Below, piece after piece: positions 42,033 to 57,686 of a stretch of DNA of 64,000 nt; within the stretch, counting starts at the first letter, position 1; each line of letters begins with the position of its first letter. Where the stretch lies: NCBI GenBank assembly GCA_017428265.1, contig JAFRRD010000033.1:23546-87545 (forward strand), given 5' to 3'. The notes under the pieces were generated by a model. That model saw nothing but the letters and a program-made list of their open reading frames with translations. It was not told the DNA's origin and did no database searches. Origin of the DNA: Lachnospiraceae bacterium. Lineage in GTDB: Bacteria; Bacillota; Clostridia; Lachnospirales; Lachnospiraceae. The position numbers and the translations under genes were made by a program.

Positions 42033-43520
42033 TTACCAGTTGATTGCGTTTAAAACTTCCTCGTATTCCGTAATGGGATGCTTTTCGCGCAGTTCGTTAA
42101 CAGCCGCCGTATAGGCCTCGTCCATCAGATCGCTCAGGACATCCAGGTGCCAGCCGGTGTCTGAGGAAACGAAATACATGATATGCGAGCCGGACTCAGT
42201 GTCAACGATGCCTGTATCGCCCGGCTTGCGAGCAGCATCGAAGCACCAGTTTTCGAACGGTTCGACCATTTCTCCGCGGTAGACATCCTCATACAGGCCG
42301 CCATCCGACGCGCTGCCGCCGTCCTCGGAATACTGCCTTGCCAGGTCGGCAAAGGAATCTTCCGTCTTCGTGCCGGCCTGCCACTTGGCATAGATCTCTT
42401 CCGCTTTTGCCCGCGCGGCTTCCGCGGACCCGAGGGTACTGGTCATAAGGAGAATGTGACGTACGTTGACGTAGGTCTCATCATCGCGGTACGGTGCTCT
42501 TTTCAGCAGATAGGCGTGCTGTGCCCCGTCATTCGCTTCGGCATCGACAAAGACGTCGCTGCTGCGCCCGTCGGAAAATGCCCAGTCCATCATATCGCTC
42601 TGAACGTACTGTTGCATCGATTTGGTGTTGGCCTTGATCAGTTCTTCCGCATACTTCAGCGAAGAACCGGCCTCCTTGATCGCTTCCTCATCAACGGTTT
42701 CGTCCACATAAAGGATAACTGCCTTCATGAAGGATGCTTCATCCGATGCCTCTTTAAACGCTTTGAGCAGTTCTTCCTTGTCGTTGTCCGTCAGTTTTTC
42801 GCCGTCCAGAAAATTGAGGTCCACATAGTCGATATAGGTAAATACCGTCTTTTTCTCTTCGAAATGCTGCTGAATGTCTTCTTCGCTGATCGCGGCTTCC
42901 AACTCGTCATTGACGGCATTGTAGCCCTTATCGGCAAGAAGCATTTTCCGCATCGACCCTTCCAGGATCTCCCAGTTGATATTCGTGCCGAAGATCTGCT
43001 CCAGATAGGTCTCGCTGTCCCATCCGTAGCCTTCCGCTTCCTCGGCGATCTCCGCCTTCTGCTGCGCAATATAATGCAGATCGTCCTGGTTCAGTTCAAG
43101 ACCGCGGTCCAGAGCTGCCTCGCTGAACAGCAGATAATTCCGGACATATTTCATGGATTCTTCCAGGAAAGCATCGAACCAGGTGCTGTCTTCCGTATAC
43201 TGCTGTTCTTTCAGCGAAACACTCGGATCCACGTTGAAATAGCTGAGATAAGAATAATAATTCTTGAATGTCAGCGCGAAAAAGTAGGACACTTCGCCTT
43301 TGGTAAAGGAGAAATGTTCCGATGTCGCGGCAACGGCGTCCGTGTCGGTCTGTTCGGCGATCAGGGCATAGGTCTCCTGCGGTGCGACAGATTCCGTCGG
43401 CGCGGCAGTACTGCTTTCCGCAGCGGTGGAAGGGTCAGCCGTGGAAGCCGGCGTGCTGCCGCAGGCAGTCAGGCCGAGGATCAGAGACACGGCAATAAGG
43501 ATAGCTGTTAACTTCTTCAT
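42033..43520 (-). CDS. PpiC-type peptidyl-prolyl isomerase lipoprotein (PrsA/SurA-like foldase)
   Basis: Secreted foldase of 495 residues anchored as a lipoprotein: the signal peptide MKKLTAILIAVSLILGLTAC has a lipobox with Cys20, followed by a Ser/Thr/Ala-rich spacer. A SurA-like N-terminal region (about 60-330) leads to a parvulin PpiC domain (about 355-465), recognisable by NVRHILLM, DSFADLARQYSEDG and a GGLYEDVYRGEMVEPFE segment. It probably assists folding of exported proteins after cleavage by the signal peptidases. It follows rpoD in the same transcription unit. Confidence 0.92.
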   Translation of the reverse strand: MKKLTAILIAVSLILGLTACGSTPASTADPSTAAESSTAAPTESVAPQETYALIAEQTDTDAVAATSEHFSFTKGEVSYFFALTFKNYYSYLSYFNVDPSVSLKEQQYTEDSTWFDAFLEESMKYVRNYLLFSEAALDRGLELNQDDLHYIAQQKAEIAEEAEGYGWDSETYLEQIFGTNINWEILEGSMRKMLLADKGYNAVNDELEAAISEEDIQQHFEEKKTVFTYIDYVDLNFLDGEKLTDNDKEELLKAFKEASDEASFMKAVILYVDETVDEEAIKEAGSSLKYAEELIKANTKSMQQYVQSDMMDWAFSDGRSSDVFVDAEANDGAQHAYLLKRAPYRDDETYVNVRHILLMTSTLGSAEAARAKAEEIYAKWQAGTKTEDSFADLARQYSEDGGSASDGGLYEDVYRGEMVEPFENWCFDAARKPGDTGIVDTESGSHIMYFVSSDTGWHLDVLSDLMDEAYTAAVNELREKHPITEYEEVLNAINW

Positions 43521-48261: not shown

Positions 48262-50351
48262 GTTTCTTCCTCTGCTTTCTTTTCTGTCTTTTTCTTATTG
48301 GCTGAAGCCTTACGGCTTCCTTTTGTCTTCTTTTCCGTACCGGTCTCCTGCCATCTCGGATAAAAGCCGGCGGTGTGCGCAAAGGCGCTCCGCAGCCACG
48401 GGCGGTTGTCCGTTTCCTTGACGGCTTCGACACGGCGACGGATGAAATCGTCCAGTTTCGCCATGTATTCATCCGCGGTGATCGTCCCCTCGGCGGTCCG
48501 GGTCAGGCCCAACTCCCAGCTCGCGGTCAGTTCGGCGTTAAGGAGAGGTTTGATCGAGCAAAGGACCGTGTCGAAGATCATCTCGCCGAGCTGCGTGGGC
48601 TGGACGATCTGCGTCTTTTTTACCACGGACAGGTAGCGGTTCGTCTCGAGTTTTTTCAGGATCTCCGCGCGTGTCGCGCTCGTGCCAATGCCGGAGCCCT
48701 TGATCTGCGCACGCAGTTCTTCGTCTTCGATGAACTGGCCGGCATTTTCCATTGCGAGGATCAGAGAACCTGTGTTGTAGCGTGAAGGCGGCGTCGTCTC
48801 GCCTTCCTTGATGTCGATCCCGGCAGCCGGAAGTTTCTGCCCTGCTTTCAGTGAAGCGAGCAGCTCGCCGAGGCCGGCGGCATCCTGCTCCTCTTCCTCT
48901 CCGTCGGTCTTCTTTTTGTTCTGCCAGAGGCCGCTGACCGCCATGAAGCCTTCGCTCACGAGAGTCTTGTAGGAGGCAAAGAAATGTTCCGTGTCCATCT
49001 TTGCTTCCAGTTCGTATTTCTGGTATTCCGCGGGCGGATAGAATATCGCAAGGAAGCGGCGGACGATCTTTTCGTAGACACTGCGGGCCGTCTGGCTCAG
49101 AGACACCAGGTTCTGTAGCCCCTGCCCGGTCGGGATGATCGCATAATGGTCCGTGATCATTTTGTCGTTGGTGTAGCGGCTCTTCCCGATGCCCTTGTAC
49201 AGTCCGTTTTCGAGAATGTGCTGCGCAAAGCCGGCCACGTCGCCGATCTTCGCGAGGCCGCGGATGTTCCTGTCGATTTCCTTGGCGACTGCGCTTGAAA
49301 GCACGCGCGCATCGGTCCTCGGATAGGTGACCAGTTTCTTTTCGTAGAGTTCCTGTGCGATCTTCAAGGTCTCGTCCGGGCTGATCTTAAGGCTCCGCGA
49401 GCAGGTGTTCTGCAGTTCTGCAAGGTTGAACAGAAGCGGCGGATTGACCTTTTCTTTCTTCGATGTGAGCTTGACGATCTCCGCCTCGGCCGGCTGCGGC
49501 GCCATCAGATCCGCGGCCGTCTTTTCCGCGACCGCTCTTTCCTTAAAACCGTTGTTCCGGTAGAGATACGGCGCATCCTTATGCCGTGAATCGTCGGTCA
49601 CGCGCCACTCGGTATCGAGTGTCCTGCCTTCATCGCCTTCCGGTTTATGATGCAGGACCAGTTTGTAAAAGGGCGTCTTGACGAAACTCCTGATCTCGCG
49701 TTCGCGCCGCACCACCATGCCGAGCACGCAGGTCATGACGCGCCCGACTGCGATCTTCAGTTTCGGATCGCCGAGGAAATCCCGGATCTCGTAACCGTAT
49801 TTGACGCTGAGCAGGCGTGAGAAATTGATCCCCATGAGATAGTCTTCCTTGGCCCGGAGGTACGCGGCGTCGGACAGGTGGTCATATTCCGTTTCGTCCT
49901 TTGCCTCCTGAATGCCCCGGCGGATCTCCTCCTCGGTCTGCGAATCGATCCAGACGCGCAGCTGCTTCGTCGTCTTCGGGACGCCGGCCATCTGCGCGAC
50001 AAGACGGTAAATGTATTCGCCCTCACGTCCCGAGTCCGTGCAGACGTAGATGCGGTCAACGTCCTTCCGGTGCATAAGGGTTTTTACCGTATTGAACTGT
50101 TTCTTTACGGCGGGGATCAGTTCGTATTTGAATTCTTCGGGGATGAAGGGAAGGGTTTCAAGAGACCATTTTTTCAGGGCAGGATCGTAGACTTCCGGAT
50201 AACTCATGGTCACCAGATGGCCCACACACCAAGTGACGACGGCTCTCTCGCTTTCGAGGTAACCGTCGTTACGGGTCATGGGTTCATGCAGCGCCTTCGC
50301 AAATTCCTGCGCGACGCTTGGTTTTTCGGCAATGAAAAGGGCTTTAGCCAT
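48258..50351 (-). CDS. topB: DNA topoisomerase III
   Basis: Type IA topoisomerase of 697 residues that resolves single-strand-linked DNA, including recombination intermediates. The TOPRIM domain begins ALFIAEKPSVAQEFA, with the acidic DSGREGEYIYR near residue 116. The catalytic Tyr is in the TYPRTDAR motif near residue 340. The C-terminus is a short Lys-rich tail without zinc fingers. The start overlaps the GIY-YIG gene by eight bases. Confidence 0.95.
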   Translation of the reverse strand: MAKALFIAEKPSVAQEFAKALHEPMTRNDGYLESERAVVTWCVGHLVTMSYPEVYDPALKKWSLETLPFIPEEFKYELIPAVKKQFNTVKTLMHRKDVDRIYVCTDSGREGEYIYRLVAQMAGVPKTTKQLRVWIDSQTEEEIRRGIQEAKDETEYDHLSDAAYLRAKEDYLMGINFSRLLSVKYGYEIRDFLGDPKLKIAVGRVMTCVLGMVVRREREIRSFVKTPFYKLVLHHKPEGDEGRTLDTEWRVTDDSRHKDAPYLYRNNGFKERAVAEKTAADLMAPQPAEAEIVKLTSKKEKVNPPLLFNLAELQNTCSRSLKISPDETLKIAQELYEKKLVTYPRTDARVLSSAVAKEIDRNIRGLAKIGDVAGFAQHILENGLYKGIGKSRYTNDKMITDHYAIIPTGQGLQNLVSLSQTARSVYEKIVRRFLAIFYPPAEYQKYELEAKMDTEHFFASYKTLVSEGFMAVSGLWQNKKKTDGEEEEQDAAGLGELLASLKAGQKLPAAGIDIKEGETTPPSRYNTGSLILAMENAGQFIEDEELRAQIKGSGIGTSATRAEILKKLETNRYLSVVKKTQIVQPTQLGEMIFDTVLCSIKPLLNAELTASWELGLTRTAEGTITADEYMAKLDDFIRRRVEAVKETDNRPWLRSAFAHTAGFYPRWQETGTEKKTKGSRKASANKKKTEKKAEEET

Positions 50352-50589
50352 GAGCGATCAGTTCGAGTTTTTCCTTCCTTTTGAGCTTTTTCAGCGCGGC
50401 TTCGCGCTTCATCGCTTCTTCTTTGGAATTATACTCTTCCAGATGCACAAGTTCAACCGGCAAACGGGATTTTGTGTATTTTGCCCCCTTGCCGGCGTTA
50501 TGCATCATCAGGCGGTGCGCAGGATCGTTCGTCCATCCGGTATAGAGCGTCCCGTCGCCGCATTTCAGGATATAGACAAATGCAGCCAT
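50344..50589 (-). CDS. GIY-YIG domain protein (YhbQ-like)
   Basis: Single-domain GIY-YIG nuclease-like protein of 81 residues. The motif is seen as FVYILKCGDGTLYTGWTND near the start, with VHLEEYNSKEEAMKREAALKKLKRKEK (split around residues 48-74) containing the conserved Glu. Small free-standing members are widespread and of uncertain role. The ATG at 50589 lies four bases after the anti-sigma stop; a TTG further upstream is possible. It overlaps topB by eight bases. Confidence 0.88.
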   Translation of the reverse strand: MAAFVYILKCGDGTLYTGWTNDPAHRLMMHNAGKGAKYTKSRLPVELVHLEEYNSKEEAMKREAALKKLKRKEKLELIAHG

Positions 50590-50593
50590 CTTT

Positions 50594-51616
50594 TTATCTG
50601 TCCGCAATTATGCTGTCAAGGAGGCTGTTCAGTTCTTTCCTTTCTTCTTCCGACAGGCGGTATTCCCTGCCGTCCGCACTCAGAAGGCCTTCCTCGCTGT
50701 CATAATCGAAACGGTCTTCCCCGATCGCGAAAGCGATCGCATCATCGGACGTCACGGCATATTCCATGCTTGTTGCTTTTTCCGTCCCCGTCCCGTCTTC
50801 CGTGCAGGCCTCTGATCCGTCACGCCCATCCGGCTCCGCACTTTCCGGCAGATCGGTGCTTTCCGGCGATTCCGTACTTTCAGCGGGCTCAGTGTTTTCA
50901 ACCGGTTCCGCGCTCTCATCCGACTCGGTGTTTTCGGCCGGTAAAGACGCATCGGGATCTTCCGCAGAAACATCTTCCGGAACAGTAACTTCCTCCATGA
51001 GGCCTGTCATCGGGCTGACGATTTCGCAGATCTGTTCCAAAACGGATACCGGCAGTTCAGCCGTAACTTCAGACGCTTCCTCTGCCGTCTTTTCTGCGCT
51101 GCCGTCCTGTACATTCATATACAGCATAACTGTCGTTAATGCGTTGCTGATGCGGTATTCGGCCGTGCCGTAAATGACGCTGAAACTAAGATCTTCGAGT
51201 TCCCCTTCCATTCGCGCCGTCGTAACGGCTGTATCTGCCGTCGGGACATTCATATAATACGACGGGGCCTCCATTTCAGGTGCCGGTGTTTCGTTCGATT
51301 TGAGGTCCTGTTCGACGAACTCCAGAGCCGCGTTGTGCCCGGCATTGGCTTCGGTGACGCGGTCATTTGCCGAAGTTGGCTCGGATCTGTGATTATTGGG
51401 GACCACGGCAACGAGCAGTACGATCACTGCGGCTGCGGAGGCGATCCACCCGAGGTGCTTCAGCGGGAAGCGGCTGACCTTTGCAGGCGCCTCGGCTTCC
51501 GGTCCGGCCTTCTTTGCGGCTTCGGCGGCCTCGGCAGCTTTCACCGCCTCCATCAGGCGGTCATGCTGCTCCTCATCCAGCCGGATCCTGTCCATATAAT
51601 TCTTATAGGCTTTCAT
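50594..51616 (-). CDS. Probable membrane anti-sigma factor
   Basis: Single-pass membrane protein of 340 residues encoded directly after an ECF sigma gene, with a 14-base overlap. The cytoplasmic N-terminus (1-54) is charged and helical, as expected of a sigma-binding domain. The membrane segment is at about 55-72. The outside part includes a segment (about 212-281) dominated by Ser, Thr, Glu and Pro with repeats such as ESTES, ENTE and ESAEP, then a C-terminal domain ending in a short charged helix. No zinc-binding HxxxCxxC motif is present. The assignment rests on topology and operon position. Confidence 0.75.
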   Translation of the reverse strand: MKAYKNYMDRIRLDEEQHDRLMEAVKAAEAAEAAKKAGPEAEAPAKVSRFPLKHLGWIASAAAVIVLLVAVVPNNHRSEPTSANDRVTEANAGHNAALEFVEQDLKSNETPAPEMEAPSYYMNVPTADTAVTTARMEGELEDLSFSVIYGTAEYRISNALTTVMLYMNVQDGSAEKTAEEASEVTAELPVSVLEQICEIVSPMTGLMEEVTVPEDVSAEDPDASLPAENTESDESAEPVENTEPAESTESPESTDLPESAEPDGRDGSEACTEDGTGTEKATSMEYAVTSDDAIAFAIGEDRFDYDSEEGLLSADGREYRLSEEERKELNSLLDSIIADR

Positions 51617-52082: not shown

Positions 52083-52104
52083 TGGTTTTTTCCTTTCCGT
52101 CAAG

Positions 52105-52133
52105 AATACAAATGAGAAGGGCCAAACGTTTCA
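52105..52133 (-). promoter_or_regulatory. ECF-type promoter of the sigma/anti-sigma operon
   Basis: TGAAAC (52128-52133), 17 bases, TGTATT (52105-52110). TGAAAC followed by GTTT resembles SigW-type -35 boxes. The same architecture is found on the other strand upstream of the DUF4349 gene. Autoregulation is inferred. Confidence 0.65.
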
Positions 52134-52171
52134 GCCTCCGGGAAAGTATTTTAAACTTTTTTTCGCGCTTT

Positions 52172-52200
52172 TGCAACGTTTGACGCGACCCGATTGTATT
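52172..52200 (+). promoter_or_regulatory. ECF-type promoter of the DUF4349 lipoprotein gene
   Basis: TGCAAC (52172-52177), 17 bases, TGTATT (52195-52200). Both -35 boxes continue as AACGTTT, and spacing and -10 box are identical to the divergent sigma promoter. No good sigma-A promoter was found for this gene. Confidence 0.65.
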
Positions 52201-52255: not shown

Positions 52256-53281
52256 ATGAAAAAAAGAATAACTTCAGTCATCGCCGTCCTGGCGGCCCTG
52301 GCCCTTCTGATTGCCGGCTGCGGAAGCAAAAAGGCGCCGGAATCTTCGGCCAAAAACCAAGGAAGCTATTACAGCAGTTCCCCGGGAGAGATGGAATTTG
52401 CCGCCGATGATATGCGTGACAGTTCTTACTATACCGTAATGACTTCCAACTACGGGAAGGCCGAGGCGGCGGAACCCGAGACAGAAAAGCCTGCCTCCCA
52501 GAGCAGCGCCTCAGACGGCCGCAAGCTCGTCAAGACGATGTCTTTCAATATTGAAACGCAGGACTTCGACAAGTCGACTGCCGATATCACCCTGATGGTG
52601 AACCGGCTCGGCGGCTATGTGGAAAACGCCAGCGTTTCCGGAAACAGTTCCCGCAAGTCCGATACCCGCACCGCGACATACGTGCTGCGCATCCCGGTCG
52701 CCTCTCTTGCTGAATTCGAAAACGGAGTCGGCGGCATCGGCAACATCACCTCCCGCTCCGAAAAAGTCCAGGACATCACGCTGACTTACACGGACACCGC
52801 CAGCCGTCTGAAATCCCTGGAGACCCAGCGCGACGCCCTGATTGAAATGATGGGCAAGGCAGACAAACTGGAAGACCTGCTGACCATCCAGGACCATCTG
52901 TCCTATATCCAGTACGAGCTGGAAAACTACGCTTCCCAGCTCCGTCTGTATGACAACCAGGTGGAATATTCTTCCGTTTCGCTCAAGCTGACGGAAGTCA
53001 AGGTCTATACCGAACCCGAAGAAGAGCCTGAGACCTTCGGCGAACGCCTGGCGGCCGCCTTCAAGGAAGGTCTGGAAGATGCCGGTGAGTTCTTCAAGGA
53101 TCTTATCATTTTCCTGGCCGGCAGCCTGCCCGTGCTGCTGATCTTCGTCGGCATCATCGTGCTGATTGTCGTGCTGATCAAACGCGCAATCAAAAAACGG
53201 CGTGCCCGCAAGGCCGCCGCAAGGAATGCGTATGCCGCCGCCCCGAATCTTCCGGACAGCGGAAACGCTGCAAAGGATTGA
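52256..53281 (+). CDS. DUF4349 domain lipoprotein with C-terminal membrane anchor
   Basis: Exported protein of 341 residues. The signal peptide ends in a lipobox LIAGC with Cys22. The DUF4349 domain (about 85-280) includes MSFNIETQDFDKSTADI, GGYVENASVSG and LTYTDTASRLKSLETQRDAL, with a coiled-coil stretch. A membrane segment (about 280-310) and a basic tail follow. The family is common in Firmicutes, is often linked with ECF sigma factors, and is not understood. The ATG at 52256 has AGGAGG upstream. Shared promoter architecture suggests it belongs to the regulon of the divergent sigma factor. Confidence 0.9.
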   Translation: MKKRITSVIAVLAALALLIAGCGSKKAPESSAKNQGSYYSSSPGEMEFAADDMRDSSYYTVMTSNYGKAEAAEPETEKPASQSSASDGRKLVKTMSFNIETQDFDKSTADITLMVNRLGGYVENASVSGNSSRKSDTRTATYVLRIPVASLAEFENGVGGIGNITSRSEKVQDITLTYTDTASRLKSLETQRDALIEMMGKADKLEDLLTIQDHLSYIQYELENYASQLRLYDNQVEYSSVSLKLTEVKVYTEPEEEPETFGERLAAAFKEGLEDAGEFFKDLIIFLAGSLPVLLIFVGIIVLIVVLIKRAIKKRRARKAAARNAYAAAPNLPDSGNAAKD

Positions 53282-54074: not shown

Positions 54075-56762
54075 ATGACTTTTGATGCCGAAACTGTCGA
54101 ATATGAGCTGGAGCATGCGGCACACCGTTCGCGTAAAATGACGAGCCGCCTGATTCTCCATGCGCTGAAGCTCATTGTTCTGCTGGCCGTGCTGGCCGCA
54201 GCGATCGGCGGCAGCTTTCTTTACGGCACAATAAAAGGCATCGTTGACCAGGCACCCGAAGCGGAATCCCTGACCATCTCACCGCTCGGCATCGCTTCGA
54301 CCCTCTATGACAGGGACGGCAATGCGGTTGAGACCCTGATCAAATCCGGCTCGAACCGCGATCCGGTCGCCTATTCCGCCGTTCCCGAAAACCTCATCAA
54401 AGCTTTCGTTGCGATCGAGGATGAGCGTTTCTGGACGCATGAAGGCGTGGACATCCGCGGTGTCCTCCGTTCCATGGCCTCTCTTCTTCTGAAAGGAAGC
54501 ATCAACGGCGGCGCCTCCACCATTACCCAGCAGCTCATCAAGAACAACGTCTTCAACGGCGGCTCGGAAAAAGGCTGGGGCGCGCGCTTCATTCGCAAGT
54601 TCCAGGAGCAGTACCTGGCCATTAAACTTGAAAAGGAAGTGCCCAAGGAAGAGATCCTGATCAGTTATCTGAACTCGATCAACCTCGGGCAGAACAGCCT
54701 CGGCGTCCAGGTCGCGAGCCAGCGCTATTTCGGCAAGGACGTGGGCGATCTGACGCTTTCCGAATGCGCCTGTATCGCCGGCATCACACAGAACCCCTAC
54801 CGCTACAACCCGATCCGCTTCCCGGAAAACAACGAGCAGCGCCGTCTCTCGGTCCTGAACCACATGCTGGACCAGAAACTGATCACCGCCGATGAATATG
54901 CGGAAGCGCTCGCCGACACGGCTTCCCTTTATGAACGGATCGCCGAAAACAACCTCCGCATCCGTGAGAATTCCTCGACCTATACCTATTTCACCGACGC
55001 CGTCATCAATCAGGTCCTGAAAGATCTGCAGACCGAGCTCGGCTACAGTGAAGACGATGCCTACACGATGCTTTACAGCGGCGGGCTGAATATCCAGACG
55101 ACGCTGGACAGCAGCATCCAGGCCATCGTGGACGAGGAGGTCAACGATCCGTCGAATTATCCCGAAGACTGCTTTAAATGGTCCTTCACCTGCCAGATCA
55201 TGGCGGAAACCGCAGACGGATCCACAAAAACCTACAGTGAAAATCAGATCAAAAAAGAGTATCAGCTGAGCGATCTGGTCTTCGAAACCAAAGACGAGAT
55301 CGCCGCGCTCATCACGCAGTTCAAAAAAGACCTTGCAGCCGGCGGCTCATCCGTGATCGACGAAAAGGTCTACTATACGCTGCAGCCGCAGCTTTCCGCC
55401 GTCGTCATCGACCACACTACCGGCCAGGTCCTCGCCATCTGCGGCGGCCGCGGCGAAAAGAGCGTGAGCCGTTCCTTCAACCGCGCGACCGACACCTACC
55501 GTTCCCCGGGTTCCACCTTTAAGATCCTCTCCACTTTCGCTCCGGGGCTTGACAGCCGCGAGATCACGCTGGCCGACTGGCAGAACGATCTGCCTTTCAC
55601 CTATGAAGGCTATACCATGCGGAACTGGTGGGACAGCGACCTCTGGCTCGGCCGCTGCAATGCCCGGATGGCGATCGTTTATTCCATGAACGTCATTTCC
55701 GCCAATTTCATGGTCAACAAGATCGGCATCGAGCGGGCTTTTGATACGCTCAGCCAGTTCGGCTTCACCTCGCTCGTCCGCAAGGAGACCATCAACGGAA
55801 AAGTTTATTCCGACATCGGTCCTGCGCTTTGCATCGGCAGCCTGACCAAAGGCGTCAATCTGCTGGAACTGACCGATGCCTTCGCCGCACTGGCCAACAG
55901 CGGGACCTACATCGAGCCGACGTTCTATACCAGGATCACCGATCACAGCGGCAAGGTCCTTCTGGAACGCGGACAGGAAAGCCACCGCGTCGTCGAGCCG
56001 TCGACTGCCTGGCTTCTCGGCAGTGCCATGGCCGATTCGATGGTCGATCAGAAAGCCAAAGGGAAGGTCGGCACCAATTCCTCCATGGCGGCGCTTGACC
56101 GCGGCATGCCGGCTGCCGGCAAATCCGGCACGTCCACCGATTCGACCGGCAAGGGACGTGATTACTGGTTCATCGGCTATACCGGTTACTACACCATGGG
56201 TGTCTGGACCGGTTTTGATGACGGCGGCATTACGCTCACCGGCAACATCACCAAGAACCATTATCAGAAAGTCGTCTGGAAAAAGGTGATGGACCGCATT
56301 CATGCAGACAAAGAGGTCGTCCCGTTCATTCAGCCCGGAAATATCGTGAGCGCGCGCATCTGTCCGCTTTGCGGCAAGCTTGCCGTCTCCGGCCTTTGTG
56401 ACAAAGATACGGTCAATCCGCCGTACATCGAGTATTTCGCGATGGGTACAGAACCGACGGAGTACTGCGACTGTCACGTGCTGATCCGGATCTGCAATGA
56501 TTCCAAATGCGAAGCCGGACCGTGGTGCACCGATACCTATACCAAGCTCTATTATTCGATCCCGAAAACGTCTCCGGAGACCGTGGATTCCGCGAAGATC
56601 TACCAGTACGGCGTCAGCCCCAAAGTCTGCACCAGGCACAAGGAACCGGAAAAGAAGCCGGAGGAGACCGAAACCCAGCCTGTTGAGCAGTCTTCTGACG
56701 ACAGCGGCGAGCAGGCATCCGCGGATAACGCCGGCGGTCAGGCAGACGGCGGGCAGAACTAA
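54075..56762 (+). CDS. Class A penicillin-binding protein (PBP1A-type)
   Basis: Bifunctional peptidoglycan synthase of 895 residues. A membrane segment (about 28-50) is followed by a GT51 glycosyltransferase domain (catalytic Glu in AIEDERFW, Glu115; GGASTITQQL near 145) and a transpeptidase domain: SxxK as STFK (Ser480), SxN as SMN in YSMNVISANF and KSGTS near 690. The last 100 residues form a Cys-rich module (CPLC, CDC, CNDSKC) and an acidic Pro/Glu tail. The start at 54075 is fixed by AAGGAGG; a longer upstream frame lies before the transcription start. A bidirectional terminator follows. Confidence 0.95.
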   Translation: MTFDAETVEYELEHAAHRSRKMTSRLILHALKLIVLLAVLAAAIGGSFLYGTIKGIVDQAPEAESLTISPLGIASTLYDRDGNAVETLIKSGSNRDPVAYSAVPENLIKAFVAIEDERFWTHEGVDIRGVLRSMASLLLKGSINGGASTITQQLIKNNVFNGGSEKGWGARFIRKFQEQYLAIKLEKEVPKEEILISYLNSINLGQNSLGVQVASQRYFGKDVGDLTLSECACIAGITQNPYRYNPIRFPENNEQRRLSVLNHMLDQKLITADEYAEALADTASLYERIAENNLRIRENSSTYTYFTDAVINQVLKDLQTELGYSEDDAYTMLYSGGLNIQTTLDSSIQAIVDEEVNDPSNYPEDCFKWSFTCQIMAETADGSTKTYSENQIKKEYQLSDLVFETKDEIAALITQFKKDLAAGGSSVIDEKVYYTLQPQLSAVVIDHTTGQVLAICGGRGEKSVSRSFNRATDTYRSPGSTFKILSTFAPGLDSREITLADWQNDLPFTYEGYTMRNWWDSDLWLGRCNARMAIVYSMNVISANFMVNKIGIERAFDTLSQFGFTSLVRKETINGKVYSDIGPALCIGSLTKGVNLLELTDAFAALANSGTYIEPTFYTRITDHSGKVLLERGQESHRVVEPSTAWLLGSAMADSMVDQKAKGKVGTNSSMAALDRGMPAAGKSGTSTDSTGKGRDYWFIGYTGYYTMGVWTGFDDGGITLTGNITKNHYQKVVWKKVMDRIHADKEVVPFIQPGNIVSARICPLCGKLAVSGLCDKDTVNPPYIEYFAMGTEPTEYCDCHVLIRICNDSKCEAGPWCTDTYTKLYYSIPKTSPETVDSAKIYQYGVSPKVCTRHKEPEKKPEETETQPVEQSSDDSGEQASADNAGGQADGGQN

Positions 56763-56849: not shown

Positions 56850-57686
56850 TTAATTCTGGTCCGTCCCATCCGGGGCTTCGTTCACTCCTGCCGGATCCTC
56901 CCCGCTCACTTCCGTTTTCGGGGGATTTTTCTTCCGCCACAGATAAATGACCAGGCCCAGAGCCACGATGGCGATGGGGATAATGATCTTCCAGCGGCTG
57001 CCCAGAAGCACGATGATCAGAGCCAGTACCGCAATCACGGCCACGCCGACGGCGATGGGCAGCGGATTCACTTTTTTCTCCTGTACGCTCTCTACCACGA
57101 AGTTTTTCGCAGCCTTCGAGGTGGCTTTGCTGAAGTCCGAGATGGTACTGGCAGAGTTCTTTCCGATGGTTTTCAGCTTGTCTTTCGCGTTGTTAGTGAA
57201 TTCTGCGCGTTTGGCGGCGAATTCGGCCGAGCGGATGGCGGATTCCTTGGCGCGGTCTTTTGCAAAGACGTTCTCGATAAAGGAGTACAGACGCTCGAAG
57301 AAGCGGTCTGAATAGACCTGGATATAAGGGATGGCATTGAAATCATTCAGCCCTTCCAGACCTTCCGGCATGGTTTCGGGCCACTTGAAATCTTCCGATG
57401 TTACCGGGATCACTTCCAGCCCTTTCTCGATGGCGACGAGGATCTCCTTGCGAACCACATCATCAGGATTCACGCAGCGGTCCAGGGCGTTTTTCGAAAG
57501 GATCAGCACGAAGATCCTGCATTTATCAAGTTCCGAAACGATGTTTTCGTGAAAGTTCCCGACATTCAGCTTTTCTACATCCAGAAAACACTTGTAATTT
57601 TTCTCCAGTCTCAGCCGGTCATAGATCATGCGGGCCATGGTGCTGCCGGTGTCACGCCTGTAACTGATAAAGATACCCTGAGTCAT
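56850..57686 (-). CDS. TIR-domain protein with two C-terminal membrane segments
   Basis: A 278-residue protein. The N-terminal TIR domain (about 1-137) starts GIFISYRRDTGSTMARMIYDRL (core FISYRRD at 6-12), with LDVEKLNVGNF near 35 and an RKEI segment with Glu81, the position of the catalytic Glu in TIR NADases. An Ala/Lys/Asn-rich helical region (about 140-205) and two membrane segments (about 209-229 and 232-250) follow, then a Pro/Glu/Gly-rich tail. Stand-alone TIR proteins can be NAD-degrading immunity effectors, but no partner sensor lies nearby. It is monocistronic, with its own promoter holding a palindrome. Activity and role are inferred. Confidence 0.85.
   Translation of the reverse strand: MTQGIFISYRRDTGSTMARMIYDRLRLEKNYKCFLDVEKLNVGNFHENIVSELDKCRIFVLILSKNALDRCVNPDDVVRKEILVAIEKGLEVIPVTSEDFKWPETMPEGLEGLNDFNAIPYIQVYSDRFFERLYSFIENVFAKDRAKESAIRSAEFAAKRAEFTNNAKDKLKTIGKNSASTISDFSKATSKAAKNFVVESVQEKKVNPLPIAVGVAVIAVLALIIVLLGSRWKIIIPIAIVALGLVIYLWRKKNPPKTEVSGEDPAGVNEAPDGTDQN

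Follow-up and report, generated by a model that had tools for sequence, protein, structure and literature searches.

A candidate ECF sigma promoter class shared by a sigma/anti-sigma operon, a divergent DUF4349 lipoprotein gene and, in sister species, lipoprotein serpin genes

The window analyzed here, a 64,000-nucleotide stretch of a Lachnospiraceae contig, carries a module made up of an ECF sigma factor gene, an overlapping gene for a putative membrane anti-sigma and a divergently transcribed gene for a DUF4349 lipoprotein (Table 1). The sigma open reading frame was first listed at 166 amino acids, with Sigma70_r2 and Sigma70_r4_2 both above cut-off. The GTG start used here is accompanied by a Shine-Dalgarno-like sequence and aligns with the start codons of the orthologs, among which this column is conserved. 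A TTG at 52103 was rejected as the start, because it lies one base past the -10 element described below (52105) and so could not serve a transcript from that promoter, and because it falls off the conserved start column. With regions 2 and 4 only and a length in the class of about 160–190 amino acids, the protein is an ECF sigma factor. Assignment as a SigW, SigV or SigM equivalog was rejected, as the NCBIfam scores were far under the cut-offs (SigW 82.4 bits, cut-off 209; SigV 80.7, cut-off 190; SigM 75.4, cut-off 190); the sole family passed among the 25 listed was the generic sigma70-ECF superfamily, TIGR02937.

The putative anti-sigma has a conserved, cytoplasmic N terminus and one transmembrane (TM) helix, as judged from five orthologs that are partial at the ends of their loci. 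Its ectodomain is hypervariable, rich in Ser, Thr, Glu and Pro, and disordered-looking. The protein gave no Pfam match, anti-sigma domains included, and no NCBIfam match. A gene for a GIY-YIG domain protein lies directly downstream of it. In the DUF4349 protein, a lipobox (LIAGC) is located near residue 21 and a hydrophobic helix at the C terminus, both anchors being judged by eye; in the accessible part of a study of tail-anchored proteins, a Methylobacterium DUF4349 protein that likewise has a lipobox and a C-terminal helix was among the candidates (PMC10924467).

Table 1. Coordinates of the features of the module, of other genes in the window and of related loci; single positions are those of the window, and positions with an L prefix are those of separate loci
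Feature	Position	Strand	Details
Putative ECF-type promoter, sigma/anti-sigma operon	52105..52133	-	TGAAACGTTTGGCCCTTCTCATTTGTATT; -35 TGAAAC 52128-52133, N17, -10 TGTATT 52105-52110
Putative ECF-type promoter, DUF4349 gene	52172..52200	+	TGCAACGTTTGACGCGACCCGATTGTATT; -35 TGCAAC 52172-52177, N17, -10 TGTATT 52195-52200, then AT
Sigma-A-like promoter	52148..52176	-	TTGCAA 52171-52176, N17, TAAAAT 52148-52153
ECF sigma factor gene, 159 aa	51603..52082	-	GTG start 52082; Sigma70_r2 and Sigma70_r4_2 (Pfam)
Putative membrane anti-sigma gene	50594..51616	-	14-base overlap with sigma gene
DUF4349 lipoprotein gene	52256..53281	+	PF14257, E = 8.6e-63
GIY-YIG domain protein gene	50344..50607	-	PF01541
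PPIC-type lipoprotein gene	42033..43520	-	PPIC-type prolyl isomerase domain
Bifunctional penicillin-binding protein gene	54075..56762	+	Transgly and Transpeptidase
TIR-domain protein gene	56850..57686	-	TIR_2, E = 1.8e-11
Sigma-coupled serpin locus C8, own genome	L199:2517-4504		
Sigma-coupled serpin locus C41, own genome	L200:2943-4403		
Sigma-coupled serpin locus C35, own genome	L201:2682-4199		
Sigma-coupled serpin locus C2, own genome	L202:2810-4899		
Locus of ECF sigma and zf-HC2/TM/DUF4349 protein	L036:1456-2670		downstream of ECF sigma
Locus of ECF sigma and zf-HC2/TM/DUF4349 protein	L040:1006-2220		downstream of ECF sigma

The sigma/anti-sigma operon and the DUF4349 gene are each preceded by an exact copy of TGMAAC-N17-TGTATT, the two copies being divergent and lying 22 and 55 bases, respectively, from the start codons. 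The pair had been picked out by reading in the original prediction, and both boxes are present where they had been placed. In 100 dinucleotide shuffles of the window the expected number of exact matches was 0.00. When two mismatches were allowed, six matches were found against 3.73 expected, and 20 of the 100 shuffles reached six, so that only the exact pattern is informative. A genome-wide search, proposed with the original prediction as a check, returned four exact matches in the window's own genome (2.16 Mb, 52 contigs) and none with the reversed-pattern control. Besides the two boxes of the window, one match (L003) lies 40 bases upstream of the start of a gene for a LytR-CpsA-Psr (LCP) protein, which matches LytR_cpsA_psr at E = 1.6e-19 and PASTA weakly, below cut-off. 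The fourth (L004:1501-1529; G000:C38:139899-139927) was rejected as a promoter, since it falls within a PrsW-protease coding region (PF13367), and is probably a chance match; in Bacillus subtilis, PrsW acts as site-1 protease on the anti-sigma RsiW.

Some other genes of the window were also inspected. No exact box was found upstream of the penicillin-binding protein gene, two genes from the module, or upstream of the gene for the PPIC-type lipoprotein, a protein that presumably resembles the PrsA-type secretion foldases. The TIR-domain protein, with C-terminal TM helices recognized by eye, is possibly the product of a defence or signalling gene.

A further promoter-like sequence faces the sigma operon. 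Its hexamers are TTGACA-like and TATAAT-like and their spacing falls within the 16–18 bases of sigma-A promoters, so that the earlier view that neither gene has a good sigma-A promoter had to be given up for the sigma operon. TTGCAA is a palindrome and has five bases in common with the -35 element of the DUF4349 ECF box. On the sigma strand, TTGCAA-N17-TA[AG]AAT recurs in 6 of 10 orthologous divergent regions, compared with a mean of 0.003 regions and a maximum of one in 300 rounds of dinucleotide shuffling, the pattern having been picked after the sequences were viewed and some of the ten regions coming from close relatives. The sigma-side ECF box is present in all four regions that lack this site, and G011, which is among them, has another loose sigma-A-like site; the four regions in which the ECF -35 element has been lost all carry the sigma-A-like site. 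Going by the distribution in these ten related regions, the sigma-A and ECF promoters may divide the transcription of the sigma operon between them, and the sigma-A-like sequence probably serves basal sigma expression in the window species and its nearest relatives.

Conservation was assessed in 16 genomes of the genus, which, where matched to named records, are metagenome assemblies. Orthologs of the sigma are present in all 16, the other 15 at 56–86% identity. The DUF4349 gene was found in ten, divergent from the sigma gene in every one and in every one preceded by a box of the form GCAAC-N17-NGT[AT]TT. A sigma-side box of the class, with exactly N17, precedes 12 of the 16 sigma orthologs, a count that includes variants such as TGCAGC, GGTATA and GGTGTT; in the other four (G005, G006, G009 and G014) the -35 element has been lost and the -10 element is wholly or mostly retained. 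Alignment of 22 sites shows invariant G, A and C within the -35 core GNANC, and invariant G, T and T within the -10 core GTNT. The LCP orthologs of three relatives also retain the site, with a -35 element that ranges from good (G006) to poor (G009). Drift of the -35 element was seen at sigma, LCP and serpin promoters of five genomes (TGAGCC, CGGGAC, TGAGAC, TAAGAC and TGAAGC in G000, the window's own genome, G005, G006, G009 and G014), in which the -10 element and the 17-base gap are mostly stable and the DUF4349 -35 element is unchanged.

The comparison across relatives, which had likewise been proposed as a check, thus found the motif kept, and the fixed 17-base spacing, the conservation in orthologs and the promoter-like distances to start codons argue for ECF-type promoters, as predicted. 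Membership of the DUF4349 gene in the regulon is likely in view of its invariably present box. Autoregulation of the sigma, also part of the original prediction, is likely where the box precedes the gene, but with four of the 16 -35 elements lost it would not be universal. In five of the six genomes that lack DUF4349, a UPF0029 gene, which in the window lies beyond DUF4349, is directly upstream of the sigma gene (G002 has other sequence there), which indicates that DUF4349 was gained or lost as a single gene. As these six genomes have kept the sigma, DUF4349 is dispensable.

To search the genus for further boxes, strict and relaxed patterns as well as a sequence-only model were used. The strict pattern TGMAAC-N17-KGTATTRT gave 24 matches in the 16 genomes and none with the reversed control. 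When the gap between TGCAAC and GTATTRT was left free (6–30 bases, 25 lengths), 21 of 31 matches fell at the gap equivalent to N17; the reversed control gave eight over all gaps, as counted from the listing, and two of the ten off-gap matches were second readings of sites also hit by the model. The model, R1, was built from 22 sites (nine DUF4349, 11 sigma and two LCP sites) and contained no serpin site. The G005 DUF4349 and G008 sigma sites were left out as near-identical to included ones, and the sigma sites of G005, G006, G009 and G014 and the LCP sites of G009 and G014 were left out for their degenerate -35 elements. At E ≤ 10, R1 gave at least 76 hits in the 16 genomes, and a simple script assigned a gene downstream of 75 of them; since 150 first-look candidates were scored per genome, R1 counts are lower bounds, and 4 of the 24 strict matches are absent from the R1 hits. 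Subtraction of the 22 training sites and two near-identical orthologs from the 75 left at least 51 independent sites, spread over 14 of the 16 genomes. Among the matches listed, G014 and the window's own genome contribute no independent site, the R1 matches in the own genome being the sigma, DUF4349 and LCP sites only.

Among the matches listed, the largest share of the 51 independent targets falls to serpins (PF00079; 20 genes), followed by lipoproteins other than serpins and vWA types as recognized by a lipobox rule (14, one of them doubtful and stomatin-like), LCP proteins (seven, all confirmed by Pfam) and vWA-type lipoproteins (three, two of which were checked by Pfam). The remaining seven comprise four proteins with a TM or signal segment and three without; one of the four, G013:C66, looks like a lipoprotein missed by the rule. 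As background, the lipobox rule selected 3 of 56 open reading frames of the window, a set that includes artefacts. Because R1 has seen no serpin promoter, the serpin targets are an independent prediction, and the envelope module originally proposed has gained a predicted envelope regulon in sister genomes from a model blind to those genes. G013:C73 (L139), a membrane protein that has the box but no Pfam match, was rejected as a serpin, having no serpin match and having joined a single-linkage cluster via a 97-amino acid stretch only. This stretch is 70% identical to the N-terminal part of the serpin lipoprotein G010:C60 (L148), and is perhaps an unnamed envelope domain.

In 149 genomes from the family's other genera, the strict pattern again exceeded the control, though less strongly (60 matches against 23), and sigma homologs there were at most 48% identical among the matches listed. 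This remaining excess suggests that related sigmas may read similar boxes, and the box class possibly predates the genus.

Serpins were then tabulated across the genus. PF00079 matches number 87 and occur in all 16 genomes, with eight in the window's own genome; three were dropped as lacking upstream sequence or a start, and the other 84 were classed as lipoproteins (39), sigma-coupled (29) or other (16, several with miscalled starts), the sigma-coupled class missing pairs in which the sigma or the start went unrecognized, such as G000:C41 and G014:C5. A box (PWM score ≥17) precedes 20 of the 39 lipoprotein serpins, and 9 of the 19 without one occupy the second or third place in a serpin tandem. 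As sigma-coupled serpins are themselves second genes, the corresponding comparison was made at the start of the sigma gene, and no box was found within 250 bases of the start of any of the 29 serpin-coupled sigma genes (best score 9.8). In the window's own genome, the C38 serpin pair is led by a lipoprotein gene whose -10 element is good and at the right distance but whose -35 element (CGGGAC) is poor, and no box lies upstream of the C13 serpin, leaving direct serpin control in this genome uncertain.

The hinge of inhibitory serpins, P15–P8, has small residues, with the consensus GTEAAAAT. All 37 lipoprotein serpins listed carry GT[RK]AAA[VA]T or GVEAAAVT and would, by this sequence, have a hinge of the inhibitory type. 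Among 25 sigma-coupled serpins examined, GTRAAA[VA]T was found in four; the rest are mostly of the DEEGVxAASYV or NEEGVRAVSFT types, with small residues at most positions and a bulky one near P9.

The sigma-coupled serpins form operons of their own. The window's own genome has four ECF sigma genes, on C8, C41, C35 and C2, that are each followed by a gene for a membrane-anchored serpin, the serpin gene overlapping the end of the sigma gene by 4–11 bases. In all four serpins a cytoplasmic N-terminal stretch leads into a TM helix, beyond which lies the C-terminal serpin domain found by Pfam; the sigma domains were identified by Pfam for C8 and C2 and by a Sigma70_r4_2 search for C8, C35 and C41. 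These serpins occupy the position of an anti-sigma, as if the serpin domain were its ectodomain. A fifth serpin with a TM segment (C9, L203) has no sigma gene seen next to it. When named genomes were scanned with an alignment of the membrane serpins, 232 relatives were found, of which the best 80 were kept; in 52 of these 80, the serpin is immediately preceded by a sigma-like match (tblastn, E ≤ 1e-3). The window's genus contributes about 11 of the 80 loci and eight of the 52, and the others are titled Lachnospiraceae, Oscillospiraceae or other Clostridia, many being of ruminant gut origin and some belonging to named isolates. Records with the titles Flavonifractor sp. AGMB03687 and An112 (L257, L285) are among those with serpin-coupled sigmas, and these organisms may be culturable. 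The layout of an ECF sigma with a membrane serpin recurs in gut Clostridia. By eye, the promoters of the sigma-coupled serpin operons and of other paralogous ECF operons often read TGTTAC or TGTCAC with CGTTTC, CGACT or CGTATT; TGTTAC with CGTTTC or CGACT is frequent in the serpin operons, and the paralogous sigmas have -10 elements of the CGTATT type.

DUF4349, which the original prediction took to be a regulon member or a sensor, occurs in a comparable position. In 2 of 20 loci outside the genus, from two genomes of other families of the same taxonomic order, a protein composed of zf-HC2, a TM segment and DUF4349 is encoded directly downstream of an ECF sigma. Considered with the serpin operons, this layout indicates that DUF4349 and serpin domains each occur in two settings, in presumed sensors and in lipoproteins whose genes carry the box.

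From these observations, the two boxes of the window are probably promoters of a TGMAAC-N17-KGTATT class that are read by polymerase with the neighbouring ECF sigma. In the proposed mechanism, the membrane anti-sigma would release the sigma, which would then direct transcription of its own operon, of the divergent DUF4349 gene and of distant envelope genes carrying the box, namely the LCP gene with the PASTA-like tail in the own genome and, in sister species, many lipoprotein serpin genes together with those for other lipoproteins and LCP proteins. The stimulus would be an attack on the cell surface, plausibly one in which proteases cleave the exposed anti-sigma ectodomain; the products of the box genes would be protective, and serpins would be part of the response. 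We infer that the local sigma reads the boxes, that its partner is an anti-sigma and that release follows damage to or cleavage of the ectodomain, and we are less confident of proteases as the stimulus than of the promoter assignment. In sister species, the box-bearing genes most likely form an envelope and anti-protease regulon of the local ECF sigma.

What the regulon responds to could also be read more broadly, as general envelope stress such as peptidoglycan or teichoic acid damage, with serpins as one part and no signal from proteases. We consider this a serious contender, if somewhat short of an even chance, given that the box is common to LCP genes and to those for vWA and other lipoproteins and that LCP genes belong to the SigM and SigX regulons of Bacillus subtilis. 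Against it stand the position of serpins as the largest single class of independent targets among the matches listed and the inhibitory-type hinge of the lipoprotein serpins listed.

A different assignment of the reader, by which the boxes are ECF promoters recognized by one or more other ECF sigmas of the genome and the local sigma is merely one target, seems unlikely. There are 12 Sigma70_r4_2 matches over cut-off in the own genome, and the fact that the strict pattern exceeds its control beyond the genus as well would fit such a reader. However, the paralogous ECF operons that were read by eye have different -35 and -10 elements, the serpin-coupled sigma genes do not score above 9.8, and the local sigma is present in all 16 genus genomes and is preceded by the box in 12. 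With the sigma in every one of them, the genus offers no genome in which absence of the sigma could be compared with absence of the box.

We give still less credence to the possibility that an AACGTTT-like sequence shared by the boxes is the operator of a repressor or activator, with transcription starting from sigma-A promoters. The palindrome AAACGTTT is indeed present in the sigma-side box, and most of the divergent regions have the sigma-A-like site, but outside GNAAC the palindrome gives way to ATTT, AAAC and TTTC variants, in contrast to GT.T further downstream and the spacing of 17 bases, which are both retained, and the distances to the start codons fit a promoter. Coincidence, a concern for a match first spotted by eye, is refuted by its absence from shuffles, its conservation in orthologs and the genus-wide count of 24 against 0.

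With assignment to the local sigma preferred, a wider scheme can be sketched, which we put forward tentatively, as one that may well prove wrong. It envisages a protease-defence network in gut Clostridia in which the anti-sigma ectodomain is either a disordered bait, as in the window, or a protease-sprung serpin, as in the sister operons, and in which the released sigmas would turn on lipoprotein serpins and envelope repair. The palindromic TTGCAA would be shared as a -35 element, by sigma-A in one direction and by the ECF sigma in the other, which would make basal sigma synthesis and DUF4349 induction mutually exclusive.

The serpin theme was absent from the original prediction and alters the likely meaning of the module. 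Gut bacteria are exposed to host and microbial proteases, and to our knowledge the question of how they sense them is largely open. Serpins are known mainly as inhibitors; a box that foretells lipoprotein serpin genes throughout a genus, together with operons of an ECF sigma and a membrane serpin, would link serpins to transmembrane signalling in bacteria. The outcome is a testable promoter class with a specific sigma and a list of targets, and DUF4349, a domain without known function, gains a regulatory context.

The closest known counterparts of the module are SigW, SigX, SigM and SigV of Bacillus subtilis, which have an autoregulated sigma/anti-sigma operon, a TGAAAC-type -35 element, a CGTA-type -10 element and an envelope regulon. 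The module is alike in its operon structure with predicted autoregulation, in its -35 element and in its predicted envelope regulon. It differs in the KGTATT found in place of the CGTA-type -10 element, in the serpin-rich regulon predicted in sister species and in an anti-sigma without a named domain. Secreted serpins of gut or anaerobic bacteria are also known, namely the siropins of Eubacterium siraeum, the cellulosomal PinA and a Bifidobacterium serpin, for none of which the accessible portions of the reports describe ECF control or a sigma-coupled membrane serpin (PMC5127057, PMC12484212, PMC10059941). Among the matches listed from the open-access literature, none was on the topic of a serpin-linked sigma, anti-sigma or ECF system by title and start of abstract, and nothing was found there on DUF4349 with a sigma factor. 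The zf-HC2/DUF4349 proteins resemble the module in linking DUF4349 to an ECF sigma, but carry it as an ectodomain within the presumed anti-sigma itself, whereas in the window it is a separate, divergently encoded lipoprotein. For sensing by such an ectodomain, the SigI/RsgI systems of Clostridium thermocellum offer a precedent, since, going by the parts of the reports available, the ectodomains of their membrane anti-sigmas sense extracellular polymers and control matching genes (PMC12484212, PMC3990059). As far as those parts go, the sister operons would share with SigI/RsgI the use of an anti-sigma ectodomain as an outside sensor and differ in having a serpin in place of a carbohydrate-binding ectodomain and ECF sigmas in place of SigI, and the window differs again in the disordered-looking ectodomain of its putative anti-sigma.
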